64,000 nucleotides of DNA, from NCBI RefSeq assembly GCF_003171675.1, contig NZ_QFZQ01000003.1, positions 186,001-250,000 of the forward strand. Reading direction: 5' to 3'. The stretch is from Reichenbachiella versicolor (GTDB taxonomy: Bacteria > Bacteroidota > Bacteroidia > Cytophagales > Cyclobacteriaceae). Positions 11,258-47,898 of the stretch are shown here, piece by piece. The notes beneath the pieces were generated by a model. The model did no database searches and was not told the DNA's origin. It saw only the letters and a program-made list of their open reading frames with translations. Positions within the stretch are counted from its first letter, which is position 1. Every line of letters starts with the position of its first letter. A program made the position numbers and the translations under genes.

Positions 11258-11271
11258 GATTTTCAGCAGCC
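11236..11271. terminator. Stem-loop overlapping the coaX stop
   Basis: GGCTGCTGAAAA at 11236-11247 is the exact reverse complement of 11260-11271, with a 12-base loop holding the coaX stop codon (11255-11257). It lies between convergent genes. No T-run follows on the plus strand. Confidence 0.6.
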
Positions 11272-11276
11272 GAGGC

Positions 11277-18726: not shown

Positions 18727-18790
18727 TGTAGAAAATTCCTAGTCGCTTTTCTGTACCAAAAGCGATTTCAAATTAATATCAGTAGTAATC

Positions 18791-18826
18791 AAGGGCTGGT
18801 GAGCGGACGGCTTGTCAGCCTTTTTT
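18791..18826 (+). terminator. Stem-loop with T-run between pflB and pflA
   Basis: AAGGGCTGGTGAGC pairs imperfectly with GGCTTGTCAGCC and is followed by TTTTTT (18821-18826). It may end or attenuate the pflB message and so separate pflA expression from it. Confidence 0.65.
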
Positions 18827-18923
18827 AATTACCTAGTAATTAGTCGAAAGTCCATCGATAAAAACTTATAGACCAAAGCAAGATCACTATCGACTATCAA
18901 TCATCAACTATTCCCCAATCAAC

Positions 18924-19673
18924 ATGCAAACATTACAAGACACAAAGACACTCAATGTACACAGTATTGAGTCTTTCGGTACCTATGATGGGCCAGGGAT
19001 TCGGATGGTAGTCTTTCTTCAAGGTTGTGAATTTCGATGCCTCTATTGTGGTAATGCAGATACATTCGACTGTGATGCAGGAGATAAAACACACATTGAT
19101 GATCTCTTCAAAGAAGCTACTCACATGAAATCCTATTTCTCTAATGGAGGAGGAATCACTTTTTCAGGAGGTGAACCATGTCTACAAGCCAAAAAACTTA
19201 TTCCTCTCATGAAGAGACTCAAAGAGGAGGGGATGCACATTTGTCTTGATACTAACGGGCATATTCTCAATCATTACGTAGAAGAAATGCTACAGTACGT
19301 TGACTTAGTGCTCTTAGATGTCAAGCACATTGATTCTGATCAGCATGAGAAGATTACAGGCAGAACCAATGAAAATACGTTGAAGTTTGCGGAATACTTG
19401 GAAGCCAATCAAAAGCAATTTTGGTTGAGATATGTATTAGTACCAGACTTGTCAGACCAACTAGAAGCGCTTCATAGACTGGGGCAGCATTTTCAAGACT
19501 ATACACAGCTTCAAAAAGTAGAGATACAGCCATATCACAAGCTCGGTGTACACAAATGGGAACTCATGGGAATGGAGTATCAATTACCCAACACTCCACA
19601 AAATACCCCTGAGCAAATAGCTTTCGCCAAGGATATATACGAACAGTATTTTAGGGATGTGGTGGTGAATTAA
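18924..19673 (+). CDS. pflA: Pyruvate formate-lyase-activating enzyme (radical SAM)
   Basis: 249 residues. The radical-SAM cluster motif is Cys35-x3-Cys39-x2-Cys42 (GCEFRCLYCGNADT), preceded by the activase-specific SIESFGTYDGPGIRMVVFLQG. It also has the FSGGEPCLQ SAM-binding stretch and the QPYHKLGVHKWE C-terminal motif. The enzyme uses S-adenosylmethionine and a [4Fe-4S] cluster to place the glycyl radical on PFL. A short predicted terminator and nearly 200 bp separate it from pflB, so it may have its own promoter. Confidence 0.95.
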   Translation: MQTLQDTKTLNVHSIESFGTYDGPGIRMVVFLQGCEFRCLYCGNADTFDCDAGDKTHIDDLFKEATHMKSYFSNGGGITFSGGEPCLQAKKLIPLMKRLKEEGMHICLDTNGHILNHYVEEMLQYVDLVLLDVKHIDSDQHEKITGRTNENTLKFAEYLEANQKQFWLRYVLVPDLSDQLEALHRLGQHFQDYTQLQKVEIQPYHKLGVHKWELMGMEYQLPNTPQNTPEQIAFAKDIYEQYFRDVVVN

Positions 19674-27111: not shown

Positions 27112-27912
27112 CTAAAAAAGTAAGGAGAAATTAGAGAAAGAAGAGGAAGAATAGATCTGACTTTGCTTAATAGTCTGGGTATACTCTTTTGGTGTGAAGC
27201 CAACAAAATGCTTGAATTCCTTAACAAAATGAGGTTGGTCGTAGTACCCTGAATGATGGCCTATATCAGTAAGGTTATTGCAAGTATGAAAAATGTGATA
27301 ATTAGCCACTCTAAACTTGCAGAGTCTAAAGAACTTTATAGGACTCGTATTTAGTTTGTCTTTAATCAAACGATAAAGTGACATGTAGCTTATTTTTCTA
27401 TCGTCACAAAAAGTTTCTAGTGTAGACTCTGTAGGAGTGTTAAGCACGTAATGATAGAGGTCTTTTATTATGCTTATTTTTTCTGCTCTTCCCTGAGAGA
27501 AATTCGTTTCTAGATAATCATAAACTTGGGATGAGGATACCTCTAGATATTTAGGGTCGTCGCAGTTCATTTGATCAGGAAAAAAATCAAGGACCGATCT
27601 GTAGTTTTTGATGTTAAACCTCCAAAATGGGTAATAGCAAGATGCAAAGAATCTAATAATTAGCATTTCAGTGCCTTTTAACATCTTATAGTTGGAAGAA
27701 GATAGACTTACATTTTGAATAATCGGTTTGTCGAAAAAATGATCATCGCAGTAGAATCCCAATTTATTCAAAGGGATAATCCACGCATGAAAAGGTAAAG
27801 GAGCAATGAGCAAGCTATTAACATCGTAATTCTTTACTTGTACAAGCGTAAAACGTTCTATGTATCTATTGAACTTTTTAGGTTTCAGGTGCTTGATGAT
27901 CATGTTTTCCAT
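27112..27912 (-). CDS. AraC-family transcriptional regulator
   Basis: 266 residues. The N-terminal two thirds (about 1-165) is the DUF6597-like cupin region typical of Bacteroidota AraC proteins, with FNRYIERFTLV and LIAPLPFHAWIIPL. The C-terminal 95 residues contain the two helix-turn-helices: SYMSLYRLIKDKLNTSP, then NLTDIGHHSGYYDQPHFVKEFKHFVGFTPKEY, the classic second AraC motif. It binds DNA; no target is evident. The next leftward gene is the GloVer-repeat protein 396 bp away, and a palindrome-rich gene-free region lies upstream. Confidence 0.88.
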   Translation of the reverse strand: MENMIIKHLKPKKFNRYIERFTLVQVKNYDVNSLLIAPLPFHAWIIPLNKLGFYCDDHFFDKPIIQNVSLSSSNYKMLKGTEMLIIRFFASCYYPFWRFNIKNYRSVLDFFPDQMNCDDPKYLEVSSSQVYDYLETNFSQGRAEKISIIKDLYHYVLNTPTESTLETFCDDRKISYMSLYRLIKDKLNTSPIKFFRLCKFRVANYHIFHTCNNLTDIGHHSGYYDQPHFVKEFKHFVGFTPKEYTQTIKQSQIYSSSSFSNFSLLF

Positions 27913-28350
27913 AGCTGCTGATTTAGGGTTTAGTTATTAGCCGACCTTCTGTATTAGAAATCCTAATTAATCTAAAATCGCTTTGAATAAGAATAGTGAC
28001 TTCAGCATACTAACTACAGTATGCTAAAACCACCAATGGTTTCCGCTTCATTGCTTATTAGATATTCAAAAAGAAAATCTAATCCAGAATTTGGGTTTAA
28101 TGAAATTGATCGCGTGATGGGGAGAGGAAAAACTCACGCTGGTTAACTAAGACTGCAAACATGCAATCTTGTGATGAGAAAAAGAAAGCGATATCTATCA
28201 AATTTTAGAATTTCAGTGAGAGTCTATAAGTTGAAAAATGAGCTAATAAAGTATGTTGATACTGCAATTAGATAATTATTGAATTGTAAGTAGTAAAGCA
28301 AATGGTTGTGTTAACCCGATTTATGTTTTGAAACTTTGTAATGAATGTAA

Positions 28351-28510
28351 TTTATGCGTGCTATCAAGGGGTCGCATATATGCGAGGTGTTTAGGGTACG
28401 CATATATGCGAGGTCAATAGGGGTCGCATAATTTAAAAAGCTCAAATTTATTTTATGCGCACTGTGAAGGGGTCGCATATATGCGAGGTAGGTAGGGGTC
28501 GCATATTTTT
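28351..28510. repeat. Cluster of TCGCATATATGCGA palindromes in a 101-bp duplication
   Basis: Complete palindromes lie at 28372-28385, 28399-28410 (first base changed) and 28473-28486. Half sites TCGCATA and TCGCATAT are at 28424-28430 and 28499-28506, each inside an AGGGGTCGCATA context. Sequence from TTATGCGTGC at 28352 recurs as TTATGCGCAC 101 bp later, so the cluster arose by tandem duplication; the first unit carries an extra inner copy. Possible operator array or RNA hairpins. Confidence 0.85.
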
Positions 28511-28945
28511 TTCTGATGGATAGTGTGCCATAAAACGATTTACACTTTTTACTTTTTGTTCGGAGGTTTTATTTAGGTAAATGATTATTCATCTTTAGAC
28601 CTACTTAGGTGTCGTAACTATATAGTGACCATTCAACAATACTGAATAAAGGAGTTTATTTAGTGTATGTAGAAGAAGAATCACTTCTCAGAAGTGATAT
28701 GAGCTATTATCAACTAATACTGTCATTAGTAGTCGAGTGTTTGATTATGAATTTAGTACTGAATATGGAATTTTCTTGAGTTTGATATTGTTTATTTAGA
28801 ATAATTCTATGAAACTTCTAAAACTGCCTTCATTTTATTAAATCAATCATAATAACATATTTCTATGTTTTATAACATATTTTGTTATGTTTGAAAAACA
28901 ACTATCTCTCTGAAAAATACTCTATTTCTTAGGTGGTAGGTAATC

Positions 28946-28953
28946 TACTTTTG
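28946..28953 (+). promoter_or_regulatory. Predicted -7 box TACTTTTG of hemA
   Basis: Exact match to TAnnTTTG about 90 bp before the hemA ATG. The -33 element is weak at normal spacing. Confidence 0.4.
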
Positions 28954-29040
28954 TATTGCACCCATAGATAACTGTTTGAATAAAAGCTAGTAAGAGGACT
29001 CTCTTATTGGTTTGTTACTAAATCAAAAACGCAGTAATCA

Positions 29041-30297
29041 ATGGAGAAAAAATTCAGAGCAATTTCGATTACTCATGAGCTGGCAGGAGTAAGTATCCGC
29101 GAAAAGTTCAGCTTATCAGCAATAGAAGTTGAAGGTTTATACATTAAACTAAGCGAAGTACTCAGTATCAATGAGTCAATGATCTTGGTCACATGTAATC
29201 GTGCAGAAATTTATTATTTCCACGAGAATGATCTCAATGAAGCTCTGATCAAGCTTTGGGCTAGTTTCAAAGCACTCTCAGCAAAAGATTTTCGTTCATC
29301 TTTTTATACATATTACGATAGAGATGCCATAGAGCACCTCTATCGTGTGTCTATAGGTCTCAAATCTCAAATCCTTGGTGATATTCAAATCTTTGGGCAG
29401 GTAAAACAAGCCTATCAATCATCATTAGATGCGGGAATGGCGGCTACCTTACTCAATAGGCTTATGCACAAGGTGTTTTTCTGTCATAAAGCCGTCAACC
29501 AAGAAACTGCCTTTAAAAGTGGTGCAGCCTCAGTGTCGTATAATGCAGTTAACGTACTAGAAAAGGATGATTTGGCCCCACTGGATGCTAAAATACTAGT
29601 GGTAGGTGCAGGACAAATGGGCAGTGATATTTGCCGTCACTTACACAAAAAGGGATACTCAAACATATTCATTACTAACAGAACTATGTCTAAGGCTGAA
29701 AAGCTAGCGGAGGAGTGTGATATGTCTGTAATTCCATTCGATATGCACAGGTCTATGATAGACGAGTTTGATGTGGTCTATTCGACTGTGACATGCGAAT
29801 CCCCAGTATACTACCCATCACATTTTGAAGATACTGCAGTGAAGGCAGTAATAGACGTATCATCACCTAGGTCAGTAGATCCAAAAGTCGAACAATTAGA
29901 AATAGCTCTCTACAACGTAGACAAACTAGGAAAACTGATCGATCATGTAATGAGAAGACGAGAAGAAGAAATTCCTAAAGTTGAAGAATTGATCCGAGAG
30001 TCTATTTCTGAATATATGACATGGACAGAAGATTTAATATTCAGTGATAGTGTCAAAAGGTTTAAGACTACTCTTGAAGAATTGAGGACACAGACGATGG
30101 CATCTATGCTGAAGAAAATGAATGAGGAGGAAAAAGGTTTGGTAGAAGAAGTGACCAAAAGGATGCTACAGAAAATTGTAGACCTCCCTGTAATGAGTAT
30201 GAAAACCGCTTGTCTAAGAGATCAAGAACCATCCGAGCTCAGTGAAACCCTCAATGAGCTTTTTAATATCGAATATAAAAAACAAGTTAAATCATAA
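29041..30297 (+). CDS. hemA: Glutamyl-tRNA reductase
   Basis: 418 residues. The catalytic-domain motif LVTCNRAEIYYF holds the active-site Cys near residue 51. IGLKSQILGDIQIFGQVKQAYQ and the NADPH-binding ILVVGAGQMGSDICRHL (about 186-203) follow, with a C-terminal dimerisation helix. The enzyme reduces Glu-tRNA to glutamate-1-semialdehyde, the first committed step of heme synthesis by the C5 path. The globin gene starts 12 bp later. Placing hemA at the head of a run of heme-protein genes suggests coordinated heme supply. Confidence 0.96.
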   Translation: MEKKFRAISITHELAGVSIREKFSLSAIEVEGLYIKLSEVLSINESMILVTCNRAEIYYFHENDLNEALIKLWASFKALSAKDFRSSFYTYYDRDAIEHLYRVSIGLKSQILGDIQIFGQVKQAYQSSLDAGMAATLLNRLMHKVFFCHKAVNQETAFKSGAASVSYNAVNVLEKDDLAPLDAKILVVGAGQMGSDICRHLHKKGYSNIFITNRTMSKAEKLAEECDMSVIPFDMHRSMIDEFDVVYSTVTCESPVYYPSHFEDTAVKAVIDVSSPRSVDPKVEQLEIALYNVDKLGKLIDHVMRRREEEIPKVEELIRESISEYMTWTEDLIFSDSVKRFKTTLEELRTQTMASMLKKMNEEEKGLVEEVTKRMLQKIVDLPVMSMKTACLRDQEPSELSETLNELFNIEYKKQVKS

Positions 30298-30309
30298 ATC
30301 AAAATTGAA

Positions 30310-30783
30310 ATGAGTCTATTGAGTTCACTATTCGGAAAGAAAAAAGAGAAAGTAGAAGAAGGTCCAATCACTGCCAAGCAAAAAGAATTGGTACAAAGTA
30401 CGTTTGCCTTAGTAGCACCTATTGCGCCTCAGGCTGCAGAGATTTTTTATAATAAGTTGTTTGAGTTGGATCCTGAATTGAAACCACTTTTCAAAGGTGA
30501 TATCAAGGAGCAGGGTAACAAGCTGATGACCATGTTAGCTGCTGCTGTCAAAGGGCTTGATGATTTAGGAGCTTTGGTTCCAGTGGTTCAAGATCTAGGA
30601 AAGAGACACGTAGGATATGGGGTGACTGATTCGATGTACGACACAGTTGCTGCTGCTCTATTAGCTACTTTAGAAGGCGGTCTTGGAGATGCGTGGAATG
30701 ACGAAGTAAAAGATGCTTGGGTAGCTGTATATACTGTATTGGCTACTACAATGAAAGATGCAGCTGCTACTGTAGAGGCGTAA
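30310..30783 (+). CDS. Single-domain bacterial globin
   Basis: 157 residues. A Lys-rich leader (1-20) precedes a full globin fold. FALVAPIAPQAAEIFYNKLFELDPELKPLF covers helices A to C, IKEQGNKLMTML is helix E with Gln68 near the distal position, and LGKRHVGYGV carries the proximal His100. It resembles flavohemoglobin or cytoglobin-like single-domain globins without the reductase domain. These bind O2 or NO in the cytoplasm. The flavin reductase encoded four genes later is a possible electron donor, but this is inference. It is tightly linked to hemA and followed by two hairpins. Confidence 0.93.
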   Translation: MSLLSSLFGKKKEKVEEGPITAKQKELVQSTFALVAPIAPQAAEIFYNKLFELDPELKPLFKGDIKEQGNKLMTMLAAAVKGLDDLGALVPVVQDLGKRHVGYGVTDSMYDTVAAALLATLEGGLGDAWNDEVKDAWVAVYTVLATTMKDAAATVEA

Positions 30784-30787
30784 TGAA

Positions 30788-30856
30788 CTGAGTCTACGAC
30801 TCAGAAAGATCTTGTGAATAGTGGACGAGCTGAGTATTCATCTTTTCACTATTCAC
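30788..30856 (+). terminator. Two stem-loops after the globin gene
   Basis: CTGAGTC (30788-30794) pairs with GACTCAG (30798-30804) around TAC. GTGAATAGTG (30814-30823) pairs exactly with CACTATTCAC (30847-30856). Together they probably end or process the hemA-globin message. Confidence 0.6.
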
Positions 30857-30979
30857 TTATAGGATAACTAACACAACTAAGCCAAAAACATTTATGGAAA
30901 GGAAGGCCTTTACCTTACCTATGATATCAGGAACACCGCTCCATAATACTATTGTTCAAATTCTAACAAACACTGTACT

Positions 30980-31810
30980 ATGCAAACTAAACATGCAAAA
31001 TTCATCATTACCTCGGTAATTTACGCTGTTATGATGGTCGCGTTGCTTCAAGCGTGTGCCCCTTTACCAGAAGAGACTTCAGAGGCAGCTGCACCTGGTA
31101 AGTCTTATTCAATCAACGAAGCCTTCGAAATCGTAGCGAAAGAAAATGACGTTGCAAGAACGTTATATACTAAAGCCATCGTCGGAGCGGGAAAGAAAAA
31201 CGGTCTTAAGTTTCATGAAGACTGGGAAAAAGACGAAATGGAAGCAGGTCCATTACCTGCATTGTTCTTAAGAGGAATTGCAGGTGATATCCGTAAGAAA
31301 GGTGAAGTTCCGTTAGGTCTATACCTAGGATCAGATTTCCCTATTAGAAAATCAAATAAGTTCACAGGTAAGCAAGCAGAACTATTCGCTGAGATGAGAA
31401 AAGATTCTCTACCTAAGTTCTTCTATGATGAAGAAGCTCAGTTATATACAGCGATGTTCCCTGATTTTGCCTCAGCTGCTCCATGTGTAAATTGTCACAA
31501 TGATCACCCAGAGACTATGAAAACTGATTGGGTATTAGGAGATATTCAAGGTGCTACCACATGGACTTATCCGTCTGATTCAGTTTCATTCGAAGAACTA
31601 CAAGGTATGATCATGGCCTATAGAGATGGAGCTGCGGCTACATTAGATACATATATCGGTAAGTCTAAGTCATTTACTGAAGGTGGTGTGCCAGCAGTGG
31701 GAGAGTTTCCTGCTAAGGCTGGATACTCTATCCCTGCACCGGAGGTGTTCTTAGATAGTGTGAATGAACTAGCTGCAGAGCAGACATTGAAAGGAATCTT
31801 GAAGATCTAA
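30980..31810 (+). CDS. Tll0287-like (DUF3365) c-type heme lipoprotein
   Basis: 276 residues. A signal with lipobox LLQAC (Cys26) predicts a lipoprotein. Residues about 45-225 match the Tll0287-like/DUF3365 fold: ALFLRGIAGDI, PLGLYLGSDFPIR, then a single c-type heme site CVNCH at 169-173 followed by NDHPETMKTDW and LGDIQGA. Family members bind one covalent heme outside the cytoplasm and often act as redox or gas sensors, usually fused to signalling domains; here it stands alone. Covalent heme attachment would need the CcmF-type machinery encoded downstream. Confidence 0.85.
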   Translation: MQTKHAKFIITSVIYAVMMVALLQACAPLPEETSEAAAPGKSYSINEAFEIVAKENDVARTLYTKAIVGAGKKNGLKFHEDWEKDEMEAGPLPALFLRGIAGDIRKKGEVPLGLYLGSDFPIRKSNKFTGKQAELFAEMRKDSLPKFFYDEEAQLYTAMFPDFASAAPCVNCHNDHPETMKTDWVLGDIQGATTWTYPSDSVSFEELQGMIMAYRDGAAATLDTYIGKSKSFTEGGVPAVGEFPAKAGYSIPAPEVFLDSVNELAAEQTLKGILKI

Positions 31811-31937
31811 AGTTTTGATTTAGTAACAGGCGTGCGCTCGCGAGAGGGTACGCCTAATTTACACACGTTGTGTACTTCAAAACTCTGATAGGTTCGTGGT
31901 CTTTTGACCTTATTTATTGGCTTTATAAATCAAAACT
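31811..31937. repeat. 12-bp inverted repeat and inner hairpin between two heme-cluster genes
   Basis: AGTTTTGATTTA (31811-31822) is the exact reverse complement of TAAATCAAAACT (31926-31937), 103 bp apart. Inside lies a GC-rich stem-loop AGGCGT (31828-31833) with ACGCCT (31850-31855), a likely terminator of the lipoprotein gene. Confidence 0.6.
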
Positions 31938-31981
31938 CTAAAGTCTAATGACTCATGTTGTTGGGCTGCTAAATCGGCAAA

Positions 31982-32458
31982 ATGGGAAAGTATAAGTTTT
32001 TAATCATTGGCTTTGTGTTATTTGCTGCTTACGTCCTACAGGAGGTATTGGACTTAAGATGGTTAATGTTGCATGAGCTACAGGAAGATCAGATGTACAG
32101 ACGATGGTCCGGTCTAGGGCTTTCTATTGTCATCTTGTTTCAATGGCTGCTAAGTCTAGTAAGGGTAGTGCCAAAATGGGAGGAGCTGTCATATATTTTT
32201 AAGAATATTCACAATTGGTTGGGAGCCTTTACACCACTACTTTTTTATATCCATTCTATGGAACTGGGGTATGCTTACCTATTTCTATTGAGTATTACTT
32301 TTTTTGGTAATTTCCTTCTAGGGTTAGTCAATCTGGACTTGCTTCAAAGTACCTCTCAATTAGTATTCAAAGGCTGGATGATCCTGCACGTAGCTTTTTC
32401 ATTCTTCGTGACGTTCGTGACAGTTTACCATGTATGGGTAGTCTTCTACTACGAATAA
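31982..32458 (+). CDS. Five-helix membrane protein with two H-x13-H pairs, candidate diheme b cytochrome
   Basis: 158 residues and about five hydrophobic helices (7-24, 43-60, 78-95, 98-118, 133-155). His77/His91 and His136/His150 are each spaced H-x13-H within a helix, the arrangement that holds two stacked b hemes in ferric reductase, YedZ and NADPH-oxidase membrane domains. I recognise no named family. The FAD/[2Fe-2S] reductase gene starts 32 bp downstream, so the two probably work as membrane and cytoplasmic parts of one electron-transfer complex. Heme binding is predicted, not shown. Confidence 0.72.
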   Translation: MGKYKFLIIGFVLFAAYVLQEVLDLRWLMLHELQEDQMYRRWSGLGLSIVILFQWLLSLVRVVPKWEELSYIFKNIHNWLGAFTPLLFYIHSMELGYAYLFLLSITFFGNFLLGLVNLDLLQSTSQLVFKGWMILHVAFSFFVTFVTVYHVWVVFYYE

Positions 32459-32490
32459 TTCAATTCTATTACTGCTAAATCAAAAACTAA

Positions 32491-33552
32491 ATGGAAAGAG
32501 TATCAACACTGAAAGTCGTAGACGTCATCAAAGAGACCGAAGACGCTGTCAGTATACATTTTAAACAACCGTTTTTCGGTAAACTGAAATACATATCAGG
32601 TCAGTTTCTAACCATCCTTGTAGATGTAGAGGGTGAAGTAGAGCGCCGATGTTATTCTCTGAATAGTGCTCCTAAGGTCGATAAAACCATCAGTATTACC
32701 GTTAAAAGAATTAAAGACGGAAAAGTATCAAATCACGTATTTAATACCGTCAAAGTTGGGGACAAGATGAAAGTCTTACACCCTATGGGAGAATTTAAAT
32801 TGGCTCCCGACCCTAAAATCAAAAGACATGTTGTGTTGTTCGGCGCAGGGAGTGGCATCACCCCATTGATGTCCATTCTCAAGTCGATCATTTACAAGGA
32901 ACCTAAAAGTACGGTATCACTTTTCTATGGAAATAGAGACGTAGAGTCAATTATTTTTAATGAAGAGTTGAATGCGATCGCTGAGGAATATAAAGAAAGA
33001 CTTAATCTCATTCATATTCTAGAAGAGCCTGGAGACTTTGAAGACTGCTACAAAGGTCGAGTGGAAAGATCTCAAGTGCCTGAGCTTTTAAATAAAGTTC
33101 CAAAGTTCCCATTTGGACAAACTGAGTGCTTCATCTGTGGACCATCAGGTATGATGGTAGAGGCGGAAGAAGGTTTGAAAATGGCAGGAGTGCCTGAAGA
33201 AAATATCAATATAGAAAAATTCTCTGCTCCACCAGTGCCGTCTGCTCAAGAGATGCAGGCAGTAGGTGCGTTTTTGGAGAATCGAGAAGTCGTCATTGAA
33301 TTGAAAGGAAAGAAATACCCAGTTCCCGTCAAAGCAAACAAATATATACTTGACGCTGCATTGGATGAGAAAATCAAGCTTCCCTACGTCTGTATGGACG
33401 GTATCTGTGGAAGCTGCAAAGCAGAGAAAGTATCAGGGGAGGTATTCATGAGAAAGGGACACGTCTTGACAAAAAAAGAGGTGGAAAACAATATCATACT
33501 TCCATGTATTTGTAAACCCATTACAAATGGAGTGGTGATAAAGTATGCTTGA
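32491..33552 (+). CDS. FAD/NAD(P)H reductase with C-terminal [2Fe-2S] ferredoxin domain (PaaE-like)
   Basis: 353 residues. The FAD-binding barrel has RCYSLNSAP (about 51-60); the nucleotide domain has GAGSGITPLMSIL (about 117) and CGPSGMM near 213. The C-terminal plant-type ferredoxin domain binds its cluster through Cys301, Cys306, Cys309 and Cys339. The order FAD-NAD-2Fe2S equals PaaE and related oxygenase reductases. No oxygenase is nearby; instead it follows the predicted diheme membrane protein, which makes a NAD(P)H-to-membrane electron path likely. The globin of the same cluster is an alternative acceptor. Confidence 0.9.
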   Translation: MERVSTLKVVDVIKETEDAVSIHFKQPFFGKLKYISGQFLTILVDVEGEVERRCYSLNSAPKVDKTISITVKRIKDGKVSNHVFNTVKVGDKMKVLHPMGEFKLAPDPKIKRHVVLFGAGSGITPLMSILKSIIYKEPKSTVSLFYGNRDVESIIFNEELNAIAEEYKERLNLIHILEEPGDFEDCYKGRVERSQVPELLNKVPKFPFGQTECFICGPSGMMVEAEEGLKMAGVPEENINIEKFSAPPVPSAQEMQAVGAFLENREVVIELKGKKYPVPVKANKYILDAALDEKIKLPYVCMDGICGSCKAEKVSGEVFMRKGHVLTKKEVENNIILPCICKPITNGVVIKYA

Positions 33553-33586
33553 GTAATAAGCCTTAAAAACAGACGCGTCACTTTGG

Positions 33587-33631
33587 GTGATAGCGAAAGT
33601 CTACCAAAAGAAAAAGATGTTTCGCTATCAC
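33587..33631 (+). terminator. Perfect 12-bp stem-loop between reductase and CcmF genes
   Basis: GTGATAGCGAAA (33587-33598) is the exact reverse complement of 33620-33631, with a 21-base loop. It may partly separate the reductase transcript from the cytochrome-maturation genes. Confidence 0.55.
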
Positions 33632-33693
33632 TCTAGATGACAGACTTCAAAGAAAATTAGTCGCTTTCGAGATTTCAAATCTCAAAAAAAAAA

Positions 33694-36288
33694 ATGCCTT
33701 TAGGAGAACTCGGACATATATCAATACTCATTGCTTGGGTAGGAGCGCTAGTAGCTGGTATTAGTTATTATGCTTCGCTACGCTCGTCCACCGATGAATC
33801 CGTTCATTGGGAGAGGATGGCTAGATATGCATATGGAGTACATGTATTGACGGTACTGGGAGCAGCTATATCCTTATTTCTCATTATATACAATCATCAT
33901 TTTGAGTATCACTATGCTTGGAAACACTCTTCCAGATCGCTTCCTGTTTATTATGTGATTTCATGCTTCTGGGAAGGGCAGGAAGGTAGCTTTTTAGTTT
34001 GGATATTTTGGAATTCCTTATTGGGCCTTGCTGTTATTCAAACAGCAAGAATTCGAGAAGCAGGAGTGATGATAGTATTGACTATTGTACAGGGTTTCTT
34101 GCTCACGATGATATTAGGCATCTATGTAGATGATATTAAAATAGGCAGTTCGGCATTTTCATTACTCAAAGACCTAATAGATGATCCCATATATCAGATC
34201 GATCCAAACTATGTTCCTGAAGATGGAACTGGTCTCAATCCATTATTACAAAATATATGGATGGTGATTCACCCTCCAATAATTTTTCTTGGATTTGGAT
34301 TATCACTTATACCTTTTGCTTTCGCTATGGCGGGATTGTCTCAGAGAGATTATACAGGATGGCTGCCCAAAGCTAGTATATGGACAGGGTTAAGTGTAGC
34401 CGTATTGGGACTTGGTATTATGATGGGAGCCTATTGGGCTTATGAAACCCTCAATTTTGGAGGCTATTGGAATTGGGACCCTGTTGAAAATGCTATTCTT
34501 ATTCCATGGCTTGTGCTCTTGGGCGCATTACACGGTATGACCATATTCAAGAAAAAAGGACAAGGTCTATATTATACAACCATCCTCACGATTACAGGAT
34601 TTGTTTTGGTTGTTTATTCTACATTTCTCACCAGAAGTGGAATCTTAGGAGATAGTAGCGTACACTCTTTTACTGATTTAGGTTTGTCTGGACAGTTGTT
34701 AATTTTCTTGTTAGCAACTATTGGTATTTCAGTTTTTGTTCTAGCCAAAAGGTATAAAGTTTATCAAGTTCAAAAAGATGAAAATGTAGATCCCAAAACC
34801 GTAAAGTTCTGGATAGTTGCAGGTATATCCGTTATGTGTTTGTCGGCATTTCAAGTATTAATTCCTACTTCAATCCCCGTTTTCTCCGCTATATCAGAAA
34901 CGCTAGGGTTTGATCTCAACATGGCTCCTCCAGCTGATCCAGTAGCTTTCTATAACAAATTCCAACTTTGGTTCGCAGTAGCCTTTGGGCTAGTGATGGG
35001 GACTGCTCAAATTGTTTATTGGGGTAAAGTGGAGCAAGGTAAATCCTTAGAAAACGCTTTGTTTATTCCATTAACAATTACACTTGTCTTAAGCTCTATA
35101 GTTATAGCCTTGACCATGGTGCACGGTTGGCAGTTTATTATTCTTGTAATATCTGCTATTTATGGTTTGAGCGTATGTGGATACATTATTTATCAAGAGT
35201 TTAAGCGATCTGACTGGAGTTTAGGAGGCTCATATGCGCATTTGGGGTTTTCGTTGATGATCTTGGGTTTTGTGTTCTCCGGAGCATATTCAAAGATGAT
35301 CTCTCAAAATCTTACTATTAATGCTCCGGATAGTTCGTTACCCATTCATACCATTCAGCAGAATGCTCTTTTGAATAGAAATCAAACCAAAGTTTTAGGA
35401 GATTGTAAAGTCACCTATTTGGCATCCAAAGTAGAAACAGCTGATCGCAAATATAGAATCGATCGAGATGCTCTTTTCTCTACTAACTATGATGATATTA
35501 AAGTTCTAAAACGTAATTACCGACCTTTTCTGAAAGGAGATACCATTAAAGTAAATACGGAGAATATCTACTATGCTATAGAGATCGATAAGAATGGAGA
35601 CAAGACAGTATTAGAGCCAAGAATGCAGAACAACCCTACAATGGGTGTAATTGCATCTCCTGATGTGAACTCTTATTGGAACAAGGATATTTATTTACAT
35701 GTTACGAATTTCCCTGATAAACAAAAGGTAGAATGGTCACAGCCCGAGGCAAGACAATGGCAGATAGGTGATACTGTAGAGTACATGGGTGTGAAGATAG
35801 CCTATCAAGGAACAGAGCCAATAAAAGACGTCCTAGGTGTACCTACAGATGACAAGAATTTTGCCTTAGCATCTACTTTTTCTCTGATAGATGGAAACCA
35901 CCAATACGAACTAAATCCAATCTATCTCATCACCCAACAGGGGGCTAGAATCTATCCTGAGCAAAATACAACTTTAGGAATTGAAATGGTAGTAGACAGA
36001 ATTGATGTCGCTACAGGTACTGTAACTGGGTTATTGAGAGCTTCACAGAGAGATTGGATAACGATCAAGGCAAAGGAAATGCCTTTCATAGGGTTGGTAT
36101 GGATGGGAACCGTCATTATGGTAATGGGTGTAATGATAGCAGTAGTGAGAAGGGTGAAACAAGCTGCTGTAGAGGAAGAACTAGTACCGATGATTGTCGA
36201 GCATGAGAATAGTCGAAAAACAAAAATATCAGAGATGCATCCTCATATTGCTGCAAGTATGAGAGTGAATAGAGAAATGTTGAATTAG
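33694..36288 (+). CDS. ccmF: CcmF-type heme lyase, cytochrome c biogenesis
   Basis: 864 residues and about fifteen membrane helices. The N-terminal half contains SCFWEGQEGSFLVWIFWNSLLG and the heme-handling WWD-type segment GGYWNWDPVENAILIPWL (about residues 256-273), followed by FLTRSGILGDSSVHSF. A large periplasmic domain lies near residues 540-790, before a final helix. CcmF joins heme to CxxCH cysteines of exported apocytochromes. It is followed after 14 bp by a pentaheme cytochrome and lies in the same run as the CVNCH lipoprotein, both plausible substrates. Other Ccm genes are not in the window. Confidence 0.93.
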   Translation: MPLGELGHISILIAWVGALVAGISYYASLRSSTDESVHWERMARYAYGVHVLTVLGAAISLFLIIYNHHFEYHYAWKHSSRSLPVYYVISCFWEGQEGSFLVWIFWNSLLGLAVIQTARIREAGVMIVLTIVQGFLLTMILGIYVDDIKIGSSAFSLLKDLIDDPIYQIDPNYVPEDGTGLNPLLQNIWMVIHPPIIFLGFGLSLIPFAFAMAGLSQRDYTGWLPKASIWTGLSVAVLGLGIMMGAYWAYETLNFGGYWNWDPVENAILIPWLVLLGALHGMTIFKKKGQGLYYTTILTITGFVLVVYSTFLTRSGILGDSSVHSFTDLGLSGQLLIFLLATIGISVFVLAKRYKVYQVQKDENVDPKTVKFWIVAGISVMCLSAFQVLIPTSIPVFSAISETLGFDLNMAPPADPVAFYNKFQLWFAVAFGLVMGTAQIVYWGKVEQGKSLENALFIPLTITLVLSSIVIALTMVHGWQFIILVISAIYGLSVCGYIIYQEFKRSDWSLGGSYAHLGFSLMILGFVFSGAYSKMISQNLTINAPDSSLPIHTIQQNALLNRNQTKVLGDCKVTYLASKVETADRKYRIDRDALFSTNYDDIKVLKRNYRPFLKGDTIKVNTENIYYAIEIDKNGDKTVLEPRMQNNPTMGVIASPDVNSYWNKDIYLHVTNFPDKQKVEWSQPEARQWQIGDTVEYMGVKIAYQGTEPIKDVLGVPTDDKNFALASTFSLIDGNHQYELNPIYLITQQGARIYPEQNTTLGIEMVVDRIDVATGTVTGLLRASQRDWITIKAKEMPFIGLVWMGTVIMVMGVMIAVVRRVKQAAVEEELVPMIVEHENSRKTKISEMHPHIAASMRVNREMLN

Positions 36289-36302
36289 CAAATTCAGAAA
36301 AT

Positions 36303-37022
36303 ATGGGATTTAGTATCAGTAGAAGAAGACAAAGACAATGGATTGGGTTTGGAGTTGGTATATTGGCCACTGTAGTAGCCTGGGTAGTATTATCTGTTCC
36401 GTCAGGAGAAGACTTTCTATCCAAAGGACCTCTTAACACAGGACACGAGGACTTAAGTTGCGAATCATGCCATACACCTGCTAAGGGTACTACCATGCAG
36501 CAGCTTACAGCCAATGTAATGTTTACGTTTGGGATGCGTAAGTCTAAGGCAGATTTTGGTACAGAGAATGTAGACAATACCAAATGCCTTGATTGTCACG
36601 ATCGCCCTAATGACCGTCATCCCCTGCATAGATTTGAGGAGACAAGGTTCTCTGAAGCTAGAAAAGAAATAGGCGTGACGGAGTGTGAATCATGTCACAA
36701 TGAACACAATGGTGTTCGCATCACTCAGACTAACATTGGTTATTGTCAGAGCTGTCATAGTGAAACATCTCTCAGTGATGATCCTCTGGAAATTTCCCAT
36801 GCTCAGCTTATCAAAGAGGAAAAATGGAGTACCTGTTTACAATGCCATGATTTTCATGGAAACCATATTATGCATGTGGCAGAAAGCATGAAAGATACGA
36901 TACCATTAACTGTGGTCCGAGAGTATTTTGATGGTGGTGAAACACCATACTCCGATAAGAAAAAGTACAAACCGCTCACTGAGGAAGAATATTGGGAAAT
37001 GAAGAAGAAAAAGAAGAAATAA
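36303..37022 (+). CDS. Membrane-anchored pentaheme cytochrome c
   Basis: 239 residues. One N-terminal helix (about 13-31) anchors the protein, and five CxxCH heme sites begin at residues 53, 95, 128, 148 and 178 (CESCH, CLDCH, CESCH, CQSCH, CLQCH). Several additional His residues (for example in HPLH and HEHN-like contexts) could be distal ligands. The end is very Lys-rich. It resembles cytochrome c3/NapC-like periplasmic electron carriers, without a recognisable catalytic heme. Probable role: taking electrons from the membrane part of this cluster to a periplasmic acceptor. Confidence 0.9.
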   Translation: MGFSISRRRQRQWIGFGVGILATVVAWVVLSVPSGEDFLSKGPLNTGHEDLSCESCHTPAKGTTMQQLTANVMFTFGMRKSKADFGTENVDNTKCLDCHDRPNDRHPLHRFEETRFSEARKEIGVTECESCHNEHNGVRITQTNIGYCQSCHSETSLSDDPLEISHAQLIKEEKWSTCLQCHDFHGNHIMHVAESMKDTIPLTVVREYFDGGETPYSDKKKYKPLTEEEYWEMKKKKKK

Positions 37023-37490
37023 CTAACTAAGCGATTGCTACTGTAACGTCCGTAGGGTTTTACCTTGCGGGCGTTTACAACTTGGGTCATTTGGAAATCT
37101 TCACTGAAGCTCGATTTGACAATTATTCGTCTTCAAAATCCTGATTTTGTCTCTTTTTTCTTCTGTTTATCAATAAAATGCTGACTGTGACACTGTTTTA
37201 AAGTAAAACACTTCCAAAATCTTGATTTCACTTTCTTTAAAGGAATATGGCTTCAGTGTTTACTCTACTCATACGTAGAGAATTATTCAATATTAAAGCT
37301 TATTACTTTTTGTTTTCTTTTGTTAGTAAAAGTTGAGTTTTAGAGTGGTATTTCTAGTTTTGCTGCTTCAATTAAAAATCAGTTTGAGAGAAATGATTTA
37401 CTAGTTGTGGATTAATATTTCTATTAAAACTAAATGGGGGTATCGATCATGTTAAAATCATTAATTATTCAACAGTTAGCTTAATCAATT
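37023..37490. other. 468-bp AT-rich gap
   Basis: Apart from the hairpin at 37045-37075 just after the cytochrome stop, I see no gene or repeat. The second half is very AT-rich and presumably carries the promoter of the following barrel gene. Confidence 0.65.
37045..37075 (+). terminator. Terminator-like hairpin ending the heme cluster
   Basis: AACGTCCGTAGG pairs with CCTTGCGGGCGTT allowing G-T pairs and one bulge, around a six-base loop, 22 bp after the pentaheme stop codon. No long T-run. Confidence 0.55.
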
Positions 37491-38741
37491 ATGAAAAAAA
37501 GTCTAATACTAATCCTACTTATTGCCCTTTCTACTACAAATCTATATTCACAAGTTTCTTTTGTAAATGGATATTTTATTGATAATTCTGGTACTAAAGT
37601 AGAATGCCTTATTAAAGATAAAGGATGGGAGAGAAACCCTGAATTATTTGAGTACAGAGAAACTATTAAGGGAGATGTACTAAAGAAAAGGATTAGTGAA
37701 ATTCAAAGCTTTGCGATTTTAGACGGTGTGAAATTTGTACGTGCTTCAGTTGAAATGGACATGTCAAGTGATTATCTAGAAAAGTTGAGTAAGGTTAAAG
37801 AGCCTGAGTTTGAAAATAAAACGGTTTTACTAAGAGTTTTGGTCGAAGGTAGTGGATCATTGTATCAGTATTATGGAGAAGGAGTAAATAGATTTTTTTA
37901 TAAAAAGGGAGATGAGTACATTCAGCTTATTCATAAGCGATATAAGATAGAAAAAACCCTTCATGGCTTTAAGTATGAATATTCTATTGGAGTAAATAAT
38001 TATTTTCATTCACAGCTATTTGTCAATTTTAATTGCTTGAATAAAGAAGTCACGTCCTTCACTCGTATAGATTATACTAGAAAAAAATTAGAGAAATTTT
38101 TTGAGGAGTTTAATGTTTGTTATGATCCGAATTATCAAATAAAAACTAAAAAAAAGAACAATTCTGCTGATCTTAATTTGGTGCTTACACCTGGTATAAG
38201 TTTAAATTCTTTTAAAATCAGCAGTAGTGTTGATAATTTATTTGATCATGAATTTGGATCTACAGCCAATTTTAGGGTAGGACTTGAAGGGGGGCTAGTT
38301 ATGCCTTTTAACAATAAAAAATGGAGTGTGTTGATAGAACCAACATATAGATACTACGGTGCCGATGTATATGAAGAGACAAATAGAGTTACTGGAGGGT
38401 CTTATTTATTAGATGTTAATTATTCTTCTTTAGAGGTACCAGTTGGTTTTAGATATAGGATGTTTCTTTCTGAAAAGAATAGTCTTTTTGTTAATGCTCT
38501 GTATGTAATGGATTTTCACCTAGATTCTTCAGTGGATATTGTAAGGTCTGACGGATCTACTTTTAAATCTTTCAATCTACTGTCTCAACCTAACCTAGCT
38601 TTAGGTGTTGGAGGGCAAATAAAAAAGAAGTTTTCCGTTGAATTGCGTTATCAGTCAACAAGGCAAATTTTGAAAGATGATTCTTCTTGGTCAGGTGAAT
38701 ACAGTTCTACATCAATCATTTTTGGATGGAAATTGTTTTGA
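37491..38741 (+). CDS. Predicted outer-membrane beta-barrel protein, PorT-like C-terminus
   Basis: 416 residues. A signal peptide (1-20, ending LYSQ) precedes a globular part of about 200 residues (FVNGYFIDNSGTKVECLIKDKGW...), then a Lys/Asn linker and a C-terminal region from about 225 of alternating strands (LNLVLTPGISLNSFKIS, FRVGLEGGLVMPF, SLEVPVGFRYRMF, LALGVGGQIKKKFSVELRYQ) ending in IIFGWKLF. The barrel half resembles outer-membrane beta-barrel (OMP_b-brl_2/PorT-like) domains. No function can be named. Single gene between two AT-rich gaps. Confidence 0.7.
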   Translation: MKKSLILILLIALSTTNLYSQVSFVNGYFIDNSGTKVECLIKDKGWERNPELFEYRETIKGDVLKKRISEIQSFAILDGVKFVRASVEMDMSSDYLEKLSKVKEPEFENKTVLLRVLVEGSGSLYQYYGEGVNRFFYKKGDEYIQLIHKRYKIEKTLHGFKYEYSIGVNNYFHSQLFVNFNCLNKEVTSFTRIDYTRKKLEKFFEEFNVCYDPNYQIKTKKKNNSADLNLVLTPGISLNSFKISSSVDNLFDHEFGSTANFRVGLEGGLVMPFNNKKWSVLIEPTYRYYGADVYEETNRVTGGSYLLDVNYSSLEVPVGFRYRMFLSEKNSLFVNALYVMDFHLDSSVDIVRSDGSTFKSFNLLSQPNLALGVGGQIKKKFSVELRYQSTRQILKDDSSWSGEYSSTSIIFGWKLF

Positions 38742-39046
38742 TTATTACCAATTGGATTTAGATATCTACTCTTGATTTAAGCATAATTATAGAAAGCATT
38801 GAATTTTAGGGAGTGAGTACAATTTGCTCTAGCTTGTTTTATCTTAAAAAGAAGTAGTAGACATAGGCTATATTTTATTAGAATAATATATCAAAAACAC
38901 TTCAAATTTATAATAATTACCTATAAGCTATTCTGTGACTATAGTATTACAGATAGACATTTAGTGTAACGAGATACCAGATAATGTGATTTCCACAAAA
39001 GTGTATTTCGAGCTATAATTACATTTCTAATTAATCAAACAAAAGT
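38742..39046. other. 305-bp AT-rich gap
   Basis: No gene, strong hairpin or repeat is seen; presumably trailer and promoter sequence between two co-directional envelope genes. Confidence 0.6.
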
Positions 39047-41563
39047 ATGTCTGCACGCACATTTTCGAATATTTCTCTTTTTTACTTACTATTGGCTTTT
39101 TACTCATCTCTTGGAAGTGATAAAGTTAAAATAGCTAAAATACCAAATTGGGTAAATGATCTTGAGTTTATTGATCACCAGCCTGAAGAAGGTGTAGGAG
39201 GATACCAATACTTGTTAGTAGATCAGCAATATTATTTATCAGAAGAAGAAGATTTTATTGAATATCGAATTAAGCTTTTGAGTTCTGAAGGAGTTCAAGA
39301 AATGTCAACTATCAACATCAGTTTTGATCCTACCTATGAACAGCTAACATTACACAAAATTAGAGTTTATAGAGAGGGGAAATGGATAGATAAAACGCGC
39401 AGCTCTAAGGTAGAAGTATTGCAAAGAGAGAAAAGTTTAGAAAGGTCCCTATATGACGGTTCTCTATCAGCTGTTGTTAATTTAACAGATGTCAGAGTAG
39501 GCGATATTCTGGATTATTCTTATTCCTTAAGAGGGTACAATCCTATCAAAAATGGTATTTACTCTACTGATTTATATTTTCAATTCAATGTTCCAGTTAG
39601 TAGAATATATAAGCGAATAATTACAAAGGATAAGAAAGACTTGAAGTATGTTTTAAATGAAGGAATGTCAAAACCTGAGCTTAAAATATCCAATCTTGGA
39701 TATGAGTATATCTGGGATATAGCAGCTTTGGAGACATTAATTTACGATAACAATGTACCTGCATGGTATGACGAACAAAAACATGTCTCAATATCGAATG
39801 TCAGATCTTGGAAAGATATAGTCAATTGGGCATTGCCTCTATATGAATACCCTGTTTCCAGTTTGTCAAATATTTCCATCGACTATGTTGAAGGTTCAAA
39901 TAGGAAAGATAGGTTACTAACAATCATTCGTAAGGTTCAGGATGATATTAGATATCTTGGTTTTGAAGGTGGTATTGGAGCTTACAAGCCAAACTCACCA
40001 GATAAAGTATACAAACAAAAGTATGGTGATTGCAAAGACAAGAGTCTGTTGCTAGTGGCTTTATTGAGAAAGGAAGGAGTAGAAGCTTATCCATTATTAG
40101 TGAATACAACAGCTAAACATTCAATGAATAGTAAGCTGCCGGGTATTTCAGTTTTTGATCACTGTGTCGTGACTTTTAGTTTTCAAGATAAGGAGTATTT
40201 CGTCGATCCAACGATATCTAGTCAAGGAGGGTCAATCGATGAAATTTGGTTCCCCAATTATACTTACGGTTTAAAAGTTAAACGTGGAGAGAAAGGACTG
40301 ACTTTGTTACCTCAGTATATGAAAAATGAGGTAATTATTAATGAAACTATTACATTAGAGGAGATTGGAGGTAGTGCCGAATTGGCTATTAGGTCTGAGT
40401 ATTATGGGGCTAAAGCCGATAACATGAGGTCCTATTTTGCTAATAACTCTTTAGAGTCCATTCAGAAAGAATACCTCAATTACTACAGCAATCTATATTC
40501 TTCTATAAAAACAAGAGATGAAATAAGGTTTGAAGATTTTTCACGTGGTTTAGATAACAAGTTCCAAATAATAGAAAGCTATCATATTCCAGAATACTGG
40601 AAACCCAATGCTGACAGTTCTTCAATTTATGGAGAGGTGTATCCATTGGTTCTGAAGACTGAATTAAATTATCCCAAGACCTCTGATAGGAGTATGCCAT
40701 ATTACTTAGGGACTCCTTTTCGATTTGTACAAAACTCGTATGTCCAACTGCCTGAACAATGGAATGTTACTGTAGATAAGAAGACAGTAATTGGAGATGG
40801 TTTTGAGTATAAATATGAGGTTAGTGATTTTGGAGATGCCTTTAATGTGAAGAACGAATATATTTTGACTAAGGAATACATTGAGGCAGATTCAGTTGCC
40901 GACTTTCTTGCTAAACATGAAAGTATCAAGAATGAACTTTCGTTCTACGTAACTCAATCAACAGCAGTTACTGAAGATTCAGTAGATAAGATCAGTTGGA
41001 TATCTATTATTTTAGTAGTAGTCACCCTCATTTTTGGAGTCTACGGAGCTCTAAAGTTAAACCGAACATATAATCCTGAAAAGTGGGAGTTTGCAGAGAA
41101 TAAAGCTATTGGAGGTTGGTTGGTATTTCCAGCGATTGGAGTGACTTTGAGTCCTTTTATTTTATTTAAAGATTTATATACAGGAGAGTATTATAGGCAG
41201 TCAACTTGGATAGCATTTTATAATAATGAAGATTATGATAAAGTAAGCTCTTTAGTGTTTTTAGGAGCTGAGATTATCTACAACCATCTATTACTCATAT
41301 TTAGTGTACTTGTGCTGATTCAGTATTATCGAAGGAGAACAAGCTTACCACGTCTTATTACTATATTTTACACATTAAGTCTATTTGGACCAATCGTTGA
41401 TGCGCTATTCGCTCAGATGATATTTACGGATCAATCATTCTTTGATGATTCTGAATTAATAAAGACGATTTTTAAATCCTTTATAGCCGCAGTTATTTGG
41501 ATACCATATTTCAATATTTCAGAAAGAGTGAAGAGTACTTTTTGTAAAATGGTAACACCTTAA
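39047..41563 (+). CDS. DUF3857-transglutaminase protein with C-terminal DUF2569 membrane domain
   Basis: 838 residues. After a signal segment, residues about 60-230 form a DUF3857 beta domain (EDFIEYRIKLLSSEGVQEMS). A transglutaminase-like domain follows at about 285-395 with the triad Cys329 (KYGDCKDKS), His372 (FDHCV) and Asp387 (FVDPT). A further beta domain runs to about 650. The last 180 residues hold a single helix followed by a DUF2569 region (AIGGWLVFPAIGVTLSPFIL) with about four helices. DUF3857-transglutaminase proteins are exported in Bacteroidota and of unknown substrate; carrying DUF2569 at the end would fix the enzyme to a membrane. Confidence 0.85.
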   Translation: MSARTFSNISLFYLLLAFYSSLGSDKVKIAKIPNWVNDLEFIDHQPEEGVGGYQYLLVDQQYYLSEEEDFIEYRIKLLSSEGVQEMSTINISFDPTYEQLTLHKIRVYREGKWIDKTRSSKVEVLQREKSLERSLYDGSLSAVVNLTDVRVGDILDYSYSLRGYNPIKNGIYSTDLYFQFNVPVSRIYKRIITKDKKDLKYVLNEGMSKPELKISNLGYEYIWDIAALETLIYDNNVPAWYDEQKHVSISNVRSWKDIVNWALPLYEYPVSSLSNISIDYVEGSNRKDRLLTIIRKVQDDIRYLGFEGGIGAYKPNSPDKVYKQKYGDCKDKSLLLVALLRKEGVEAYPLLVNTTAKHSMNSKLPGISVFDHCVVTFSFQDKEYFVDPTISSQGGSIDEIWFPNYTYGLKVKRGEKGLTLLPQYMKNEVIINETITLEEIGGSAELAIRSEYYGAKADNMRSYFANNSLESIQKEYLNYYSNLYSSIKTRDEIRFEDFSRGLDNKFQIIESYHIPEYWKPNADSSSIYGEVYPLVLKTELNYPKTSDRSMPYYLGTPFRFVQNSYVQLPEQWNVTVDKKTVIGDGFEYKYEVSDFGDAFNVKNEYILTKEYIEADSVADFLAKHESIKNELSFYVTQSTAVTEDSVDKISWISIILVVVTLIFGVYGALKLNRTYNPEKWEFAENKAIGGWLVFPAIGVTLSPFILFKDLYTGEYYRQSTWIAFYNNEDYDKVSSLVFLGAEIIYNHLLLIFSVLVLIQYYRRRTSLPRLITIFYTLSLFGPIVDALFAQMIFTDQSFFDDSELIKTIFKSFIAAVIWIPYFNISERVKSTFCKMVTP

Positions 41564-47701: not shown

Positions 47702-47702
47702 G

Positions 47703-47776
47703 CGGAATGGACGGGATTCGAACCCGCGACCTTCTGCGTGACAGGCAGACATTCTAACCAGCTGAACTACCACTCC
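47703..47776 (-). tRNA. tRNA-Asp (GUC), copy 2
   Basis: Read on the minus strand the 74-nt sequence starts GGAGTGG, pairs with CCATTCC at the end, has a D-arm GTTCAGCTGGTTAGAAT, anticodon loop CTGTCAC (anticodon GTC) and a T-arm with GGTTCGAACC. Discriminator base G fits aspartate. No encoded CCA. It is identical to the copy at 47825-47898. Confidence 0.96.
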
Positions 47777-47793
47777 AGATTGCAATTGAGAAT

Positions 47794-47823
47794 AAAAAAG
47801 CCCTTCATTTTTTAAAGGGCTTT
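47794..47823 (-). terminator. Terminator between the two tRNA-Asp genes
   Basis: AAAGCCCTT (47797-47805) pairs with AAGGGCTTT (47815-47823), and the minus strand continues in T-rich sequence. It directly follows the first transcribed tRNA, so read-through is needed to express the second from the same promoter. Confidence 0.75.
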
Positions 47824-47824
47824 G

Positions 47825-47898
47825 CGGAATGGACGGGATTCGAACCCGCGACCTTCTGCGTGACAGGCAGACATTCTAACCAGCTGAACTACCACTCC
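47825..47898 (-). tRNA. tRNA-Asp (GUC), copy 1
   Basis: 74-nt sequence identical to 47703-47776, shifted by 122 bp. Anticodon GTC in loop CTGTCAC, discriminator G, no encoded CCA. It is first behind the predicted promoter at 47916-47945. Confidence 0.96.

Follow-up and report, generated by a model that had tools for sequence, protein, structure and literature searches.

Several described systems resemble parts of the locus reported here, a cluster of seven genes at positions 29041-37022 of a 64,000-nucleotide stretch of Reichenbachiella versicolor DNA (contig NZ_QFZQ01000003.1, positions 186,001 to 250,000; hereafter the window). In Bradyrhizobium, the narK-bjgb-flp-nasC operon encodes the globin Bjgb and the NAD(P)H reductase Flp together with nasC, and the available text of PMC4724949 describes these as protecting against nitric oxide (NO). 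In the MsrQ, NOX and ferric reductase family, four conserved histidines are located in a transmembrane protein (PMC5676040, accessible sections). For sCache_heme proteins, the accessible part of a preprint (PMC12889525) reports that in the stand-alone type tested the heme is Cys/His-ligated and NO is lost fast, that this type is proposed to be redox-active, and that a sensor without the axial Cys holds NO firmly. We found that the conserved unit of the cluster is a five-gene core, encoding in fixed order a globin, a Tll0287-like lipoprotein, a five-helix membrane protein, a reductase and a pentaheme cytochrome c, to which a second glutamyl-tRNA reductase gene (hemA2) and an extra heme lyase gene (ccmF2) are additions in the window's family. 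We give this core an even chance of being an NAD(P)H-driven module for handling nitrogen oxides. Every part is of a known kind or resembles one, while the combination was not found in the open-access literature, searches of which returned no published description of the module.

Like the Bradyrhizobium operon, the module pairs a single-domain globin with an NAD(P)H-dependent flavin reductase, and in relatives of the window genome it too is accompanied by genes for taking up and reducing nitrate; unlike that operon, as far as the available text of PMC4724949 describes it, the module adds a putative membrane heme protein, a multiheme cytochrome c, an sCache_heme lipoprotein, hemA and ccmF. With MsrQ-Fre, NOX and the ferric reductases it shares a flavin reductase paired with a four-histidine transmembrane protein that would carry NAD(P)H electrons outward, and, in most of the homologues scanned, a weak match to PF01794. 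However, when compared to the systems in the accessible sections of PMC5676040, the membrane protein of the module has 158 residues and five helices rather than six and a weak Pfam score, its reductase has an extra [2Fe-2S] domain, and the place of MsrP is taken by a pentaheme cytochrome c and a lipoprotein carrying a c heme. No match to a molybdenum domain (MsrP-type acceptor) was observed in the ten window proteins scanned (27112-41563), no such search having been made at other loci. The DUF4405, FezC and PepSY membrane cytochromes are also similar in showing low sequence similarity, retained paired histidines and a context of extracytosolic electron transfer, but the portion of PMC11334425 available ties them to flavinylated proteins, whereas the outer partners of the module are c-type hemes; a DUF4405 match was observed in 2 of the 33 membrane proteins scanned (best E 0.45). 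The lipoproteins resemble Tll0287/sCache_heme proteins in having a stand-alone PF11845 domain with a conserved CXXCH, and differ from Tll0287 itself in lacking the axial Cys and in having an apparent lipid anchor and fixed neighbours; their gene context is not described in the accessible part of PMC12889525. Doubled CXXCH motifs in the pentaheme protein recall DmsE, MtrC/OmcA and cytochromes of the c3 type (generic doubled-CXXCH model 25.7 bits, cut-off 25.2), but here five hemes lie behind one anchor, and the DmsE, GSU2203 and OmcA/MtrC models scored far below their cut-offs.

The full order hemA2-globin-Tll0287-membrane protein-reductase-ccmF2-pentaheme was observed in all six carriers found in the family of the window, i.e. 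the window genome (G000), G005, G422 (locus L006), G423 (locus L007), G995 and G766. G422 is Marinoscillum sp. MHG1-6, of a genus placed by the NCBI taxonomy in Bacteroidota, Cytophagales, Reichenbachiellaceae. Using a profile search, the membrane gene was observed in 6 of 295 genomes of this family and in 2 of 8 genomes of the genus, the window genome counted. Two of the family genomes matched, G807 and G854, were taken to be identical with G422 and G423, their contig numbers and coordinates being the same. As a single query, the membrane protein matched 3 of 29 relatives, one by chance, and, among 395 genomes of the class, the window genome alone. The match taken as chance (G012, E 2.7e-4) spans a long reading frame resembling CTP synthase. 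A metagenome-assembled genome labelled Flavobacterium (G424, locus L008) contained the core in the same order but neither hemA2 nor ccmF2, and within its family (called Flavobacteriaceae by record label; hereafter the second family) the membrane protein was observed in 31 of 397 genomes, the query genome included. We fetched and compared the regions of the 30 carriers other than L008, and the core was adjacent and in the same order in 29 of these, with median intergenic gaps of 20, 56, 8 and 12 bp across the core and a largest gap of 333. Since this arrangement is found again in other genera and in a further family, the cluster is not a chance grouping. The original prediction, made from the letters of the window alone, depended on the genes staying together in related genomes; the carriers do keep the set together, although only the two genus members noted above carry the membrane gene. 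Its treatment of all seven genes as the unit was not supported; it had over-weighted hemA and ccmF, and best matches to hemA2 and ccmF2 were absent from the 30 fetched second-family regions.

Core identity between clusters within the window's family was 63-85%, and the core genes of G000 and G005, which belong to the same genus, were 70-80% identical, not above the values between genera. In comparison, nirB was 84% identical within the genus versus 67-70% between genera, and nasC 78% versus 66-69%, while nrtA did not separate the two levels (88% within, 81-88% between). Horizontal transfer is a likely reason for this pattern.

Nitrate genes were observed beside the module in four of the six carriers in the window's family. 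The order crp-porin-nrtA-B-C-D-hemA2-onward was found in Marinoscillum (L006), G995 and G766, with 10-21 bp between nrtD and hemA2. In G423, hemA2 comes after nirB, nirD, crp and a NarX/NarL-like pair, and the pentaheme gene is followed by porin-nrtA-B-C up to the end of the sequence compared; in G422 and G423 nasC was at most about 15 kb from the cluster. All 6 carriers contained nrtA (E <= 1e-100) as compared to 40 of the 295 family genomes (hypergeometric 4.4e-6 by genome and 1.4e-4 by genus, figures that carry no correction for kinship). The 30 second-family loci included a crp homologue in 28 cases, nrtA in 24, napA in 10, nasC in 5, nirB in 3 and nrfA in 3, and in 26 of them at least one of nrtA/nrtB, napA, nrfA, nasC and nirB was present in the fetched region (counted by hand). 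The presence of nitrate uptake and reduction genes beside the module in these relatives narrows the likely chemistry to nitrogen oxides, and the function of the module family is very probably linked to nitrate. This link was missed when the acceptor was originally left among O2, NO, a metal and a surface protein.

Other arrangements were observed among the nitrate genes themselves. A NasC-type molybdenum protein, a NirB-like FAD/NAD part and a BFD part are joined in one 1181-residue fusion in the window genome (L064 7207-10752, contig C13), which possibly constitutes a self-contained NAD(P)H nitrate reductase. The neighbouring 473-residue protein (L064 10935-12356) combines a nitrite/sulfite reductase half domain with a C-terminal rubredoxin, and adjoins nasC in several loci. 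One second-family locus (L107 12663-18723) has an unusual Nap arrangement, in which a NapA-type nitrate reductase is accompanied by two multiheme proteins and DsrO/DsrP-like subunits as the apparent electron entry.

In relatives, a palindrome was also shared between module and nitrate genes. TACGTA-N4-TACGTA was observed before nirB, hemA2 and porin-nrt in L007, with 5 sites (up to 2 mismatches) versus 0.27 expected, and it also precedes nitrate genes in other loci. In the second family, TAMGTA-N4-TACKTA was found no more than 300 bp upstream of the globin gene in 24 of 29 loci (shuffles: mean 0.015, maximum 1), where the shuffles keep base composition only and the 29 loci are related, so that these figures overstate independence. 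The palindrome is likely bound by the Crp/Fnr-type regulator encoded alongside, which scored 67.7 bits to FnrL, far below the cut-off of 300.

We consider it likely that electrons pass from the reductase to the membrane protein, the pentaheme cytochrome c and then the lipoprotein. The predicted model of the membrane protein (5 sequences, mean predicted local distance difference test score, pLDDT, 72.4) has five helices of at least 19 residues, and H77, H91, H136 and H150 were invariant in 37 membrane proteins, forming two H-x13-H pairs on two helices. Membrane proteins of the ferric reductase/NOX type that carry two b hemes show the same histidine spacing of 14 positions. A PF01794 (Ferric_reduct) match at E <= 1 was observed in 28 of the 33 membrane proteins scanned (best 4e-5), the scan having covered all 37 sequences except four with over-long open reading frames (ORFs; L104, L108, L117, L126). 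Among 15 genomes, the sole PF01794 match was the membrane gene of G423, at 21.8 bits versus a cut-off of 28. In the reductase, C301, C306, C309 and C339 were invariant in 36 sequences (the fusion in L130, described below, was counted as a pentaheme row instead). All 37 pentaheme proteins contained five CXXCH, and H48, H106, H135, H166, H185 and H188 were also invariant, which is enough for five bis-His hemes. The pentaheme protein had no match to PF03264 (NapC/NrfH) at E <= 1, and the NrfH-like protein of L108 does match this family. Sequence searches of the PDB with the membrane and pentaheme profiles returned no match.

Two rearranged copies bear on how these parts work together. In L130 (G1256, 11214-12929) the reductase, the membrane segment and the pentaheme cytochrome are fused in a single protein of 571 aa, followed by Tll0287-like and membrane proteins, and such a fusion would put the reductase inside and the hemes outside the membrane anchor. 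In G005, an extra globin-reductase pair without membrane parts (L004 4151-5893) lies directly behind the seven-gene cluster. Given a fusion without globin on the one hand and this pair on the other, the reductase is the point at which two separable branches meet. A transmembrane electron route that starts at an NAD(P)H reductase, runs through a heme membrane protein and reaches c hemes in the periplasm, as first suggested from the window alone, is supported by the H-x13-H pairs, the weak ferric-reductase-like match, the L130 fusion and the gene order.

The globin matched the flavohemoprotein model at 5.2e-23, below the cut-off of that model, and its best solved relative was PDB 3s1i, a 'hemoglobin-like flavoprotein' (2e-37). 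Y47, F61, Q68 and H100 were invariant in 8 globins (Y47 and H100 in 36) and correspond in the alignment to Y29, F43, Q50 and the equivalent His of 3s1i. These residues we take to be Tyr B10, Phe CD1, Gln E7 and His F8, the set known for NO dioxygenases, and the globin is likely an NO dioxygenase served by a separate reductase. The lipoprotein has one c heme motif (CVNCH, residues 169-173) and a lipobox Cys26, read by eye, with no other Cys. CXXCH was present in all 37 lipoproteins, and the 19 of these that were scanned all matched PF11845. An axial Cys was absent, in that 34 of the 37 had no Cys after residue 45 except in CXXCH, while those of L110, L116 and L126 had one Cys at 50-52 in early-starting ORFs, likely the lipobox Cys. 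Without an axial Cys, a ligand-accessible heme is plausible, and this is the weakest step of the model. Sequence profile searches of the PDB found no Tll0287 relative.

We propose that the cytoplasmic FAD/[2Fe-2S] reductase would take electrons from NAD(P)H and feed two branches. In the first branch, the reductase would supply the cytoplasmic globin, which would convert NO to nitrate as an NO dioxygenase and slowly reduce NO without O2. In the second, electrons would pass outward through a candidate bis-heme-b membrane protein and the anchored pentaheme cytochrome c to the periplasmic single-heme lipoprotein. There the chain would likely end at a ligand-binding site, the ligand most probably being NO or another nitrogen oxide related to it. 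hemA2 and ccmF2 would serve to supply the six c hemes and the b hemes locally. Whether NO is the main substrate we regard as evenly poised. A more specific form, in which the system is a periplasmic nitrogen-oxide reductase whose wire ends in a lipoprotein turning over NO or nitrite while the reductase-fed globin makes nitrate inside, is tentative and rather doubtful as a whole. If it is true, NO would be detoxified on both sides of the membrane, with its nitrogen partly recovered.

A number of observations weigh against a nitrogen-oxide module of this kind. The nitrate genes sought were absent from the fetched region in 4 of the 30 second-family loci (L105, L110, L124, L130), one of which, L110, is a 7.7-kb contig, and 34 of the 40 nrtA genomes had no module, which means that nitrate use does not depend on the module. 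Neither the window copy nor the G005 copy had a nirB, nrtA or nitrate-reductase-like match nearby; the nirBD, nasC and nrtABCD genes of the window genome are on other contigs, and those of G005 are more than 200 kb from the cluster. The palindrome was also missing upstream of both these copies (best 3 mismatches), and an operon under the nitrate palindrome was rejected for the window copy. This is the chief evidence for applying the nitrate reading to the window copy only with reserve, and a nitrate-linked function of this copy stands at an even balance. L130 lacks not only a globin but also the nitrate genes sought in its region, and its chain may therefore have another role. When the pentaheme profile was run against 395 genomes drawn evenly from the phylum, it was strong in the window genome only (477 bits); nine other genomes with matches (E 9.5e-12 to 7.8e-9, 35-45 bits) were set aside as they look like general multiheme similarity. 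The window membrane protein had no significant Pfam match, PF01794 included, and a Foldseek search with the membrane-protein model (pLDDT 72) gave no match at E <= 0.001, with NOX5 and NOX2 chains only at E 2.2-8.0 among the 33 matches listed. The AlphaFold model of the lipoprotein (7 sequences) was unusable at pLDDT 41.5 and was not used. Finally, the adjacency of napA (10 of 30) and nrfA (3 of 30) in second-family loci fits a different reading, in which the wire feeds the periplasmic nitrate and nitrite reductases Nap and Nrf and the globin only guards against side products.

We consider this Nap/Nrf reading unlikely. NapA (L107) and NrfA (L108), one each tested, did score above their model cut-offs, and in G005 two further PF00384 proteins, 786 and 748 residues long, scored 235 and 166 bits. 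However, 17 of the 30 second-family loci had neither napA nor nrfA in the fetched region, and the four window-family carriers examined (G000, G005, G422, G423) have the NasC-NirB-type fusion and nirB. Moreover, each of the two reductase loci examined brings subunits of its own, DsrO/DsrP-like ones at the Nap locus and one of NapC/NrfH type at the Nrf locus. PF00384 matches in G000 were limited to three, of which the NasC fusion scored 238 bits and the others 74 and 26, no NapA- or NrfA-specific search of window-family genomes having been made.

The module could also be a split NOX or ferric reductase, with the wire delivering its electrons to O2 or Fe(III) on the cell surface in order to supply iron to heme and nitrate enzymes. 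The weak Ferric_reduct match in most of the membrane proteins scanned (28 of 33), with the G423 gene the sole such match in 15 genomes, is in line with this, and hemA2 points to heme demand. The linkage observed is nevertheless with nitrate genes, no search for iron-uptake genes beside the clusters having been made, and NOX and FRE proteins are not known to require a pentaheme partner. We regard this explanation as quite improbable. About as little credence is given to the lipoprotein being a periplasmic NO or redox sensor, its heme state set by the wire and its output being regulation rather than catalysis. The available text of PMC12889525 attributes NO-sensor properties to an sCache_heme protein without axial Cys, and a Crp/Fnr-type regulator gene was present in 28 of the 30 second-family loci, but no signalling domain was observed in the 19 lipoproteins scanned, and in our judgement a five-heme wire would be costly for a sensor. 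It is very improbable that chance or a common demand for heme brought together seven otherwise unrelated heme genes, for while hemA2 and ccmF2 vary fast and are not found in the 30 second-family regions, and a ccsBA-like gene is near in 6 of these, the core contradicts it with five genes in one order in two families, a fusion and a common palindrome.

Returning to the cluster itself, all seven ORFs were confirmed intact at the coordinates first given, so that the seven genes in one direction over about 8 kb stood as described (Table 1). The window lies on contig C16 of the 5.25-Mb window genome. Family searches backed the names of six of the seven genes, the membrane protein having no significant family match of its own. 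CXXCH motifs numbered five in the cytochrome and one in the lipoprotein. No terminal reductase was found among the seven genes, in agreement with the original prediction.

Table 1. Coordinates of the cluster genes and of the cytochrome anchor within the window.
Feature	Coordinates	Strand	Evidence
hemA2, second glutamyl-tRNA reductase, accessory	29041..30297	+	TIGR01035 301.8 bits vs cut-off 209.55
Globin, single-domain, flavohemoglobin type, core gene 1	30310..30783	+	Globin 2.8e-18
Tll0287-like (sCache_heme) lipoprotein, core gene 2	30980..31810	+	PF11845 26.6 bits vs cut-off 24.1
Five-helix membrane protein, bis-heme-b candidate, core gene 3	31982..32458	+	Predicted helices, invariant His
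NAD(P)H reductase, FAD + NAD + plant-type [2Fe-2S] domains, core gene 4	32491..33552	+	PF00970, PF00175, PF00111 above cut-off
ccmF2, extra CcmF/NrfE-like heme lyase, accessory	33694..36288	+	Cytochrom_C_asm 1.5e-29
Pentaheme cytochrome c, membrane-anchored, core gene 5	36303..37022	+	Paired_CXXCH_1 2.2e-8; five CXXCH
N-terminal hydrophobic anchor of pentaheme cytochrome	36336..36395	+	Read from sequence; matching segment in L130 fusion

From their sequences, hemA2 and ccmF2 are fast-evolving second copies. Two hemA genes above the cut-off were observed in G000, G005, G422 and G423, and one in each of the six cluster-less genus members tested. Identity between the six clusters was 38-49% for hemA2, and between five clusters 45-50% for ccmF2, with G995 left out because its copy is split; both genes thus differ more between clusters than the core genes do within the window's family (63-85%). 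This G995 copy consists of two ORFs of 264 and 593 aa (L070 1621-4211), representing a split gene, a frameshift or a sequencing error. The Cytochrom_C_asm domain of ccmF2 scored 103.6 bits (cut-off 29.9), and its CcmF_C domain was below cut-off (23.0 versus 28.7 bits). G000 has further cytochrome c assembly genes elsewhere, with the sizes of CcmF, CcmC and CcsBA, and the second-family gene near the core in 6 of 30 loci is a ccsBA-like assembly gene. A role of ccmF2 as lyase for an unusual heme motif was rejected, as the motifs counted in the cluster were all standard CXXCH.

Other features of the window were also recorded. Upstream of hemA, a palindrome array, TCGCATATATGCGA, was observed at 28344-28506 (sites 28372-28486). 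These palindromes were rejected as an operator of hemA, since similar arrays occur at three other places in the genome along with one single site; the array is probably an intergenic repeat element and carries no weight as evidence. Pyruvate formate-lyase-like and activating-enzyme-like genes (16336-19673) lie beside an MFS-like transporter gene (14900-16186), all named from sequence reading alone, and two tRNA-Asp genes are in tandem at 47702-47898.

With 31 carriers in 397 genomes of the second family and 6 in 295 of the window's family, the module is frequent enough to merit testing in the nitrogen cycling of Bacteroidota. For stand-alone Tll0287/sCache_heme proteins, the module suggests natural partners and a role that can be tested. 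To the known routes by which NAD(P)H electrons cross a membrane, it would add one that uses a very small membrane protein of ferric-reductase-like type and a multiheme partner facing outward.

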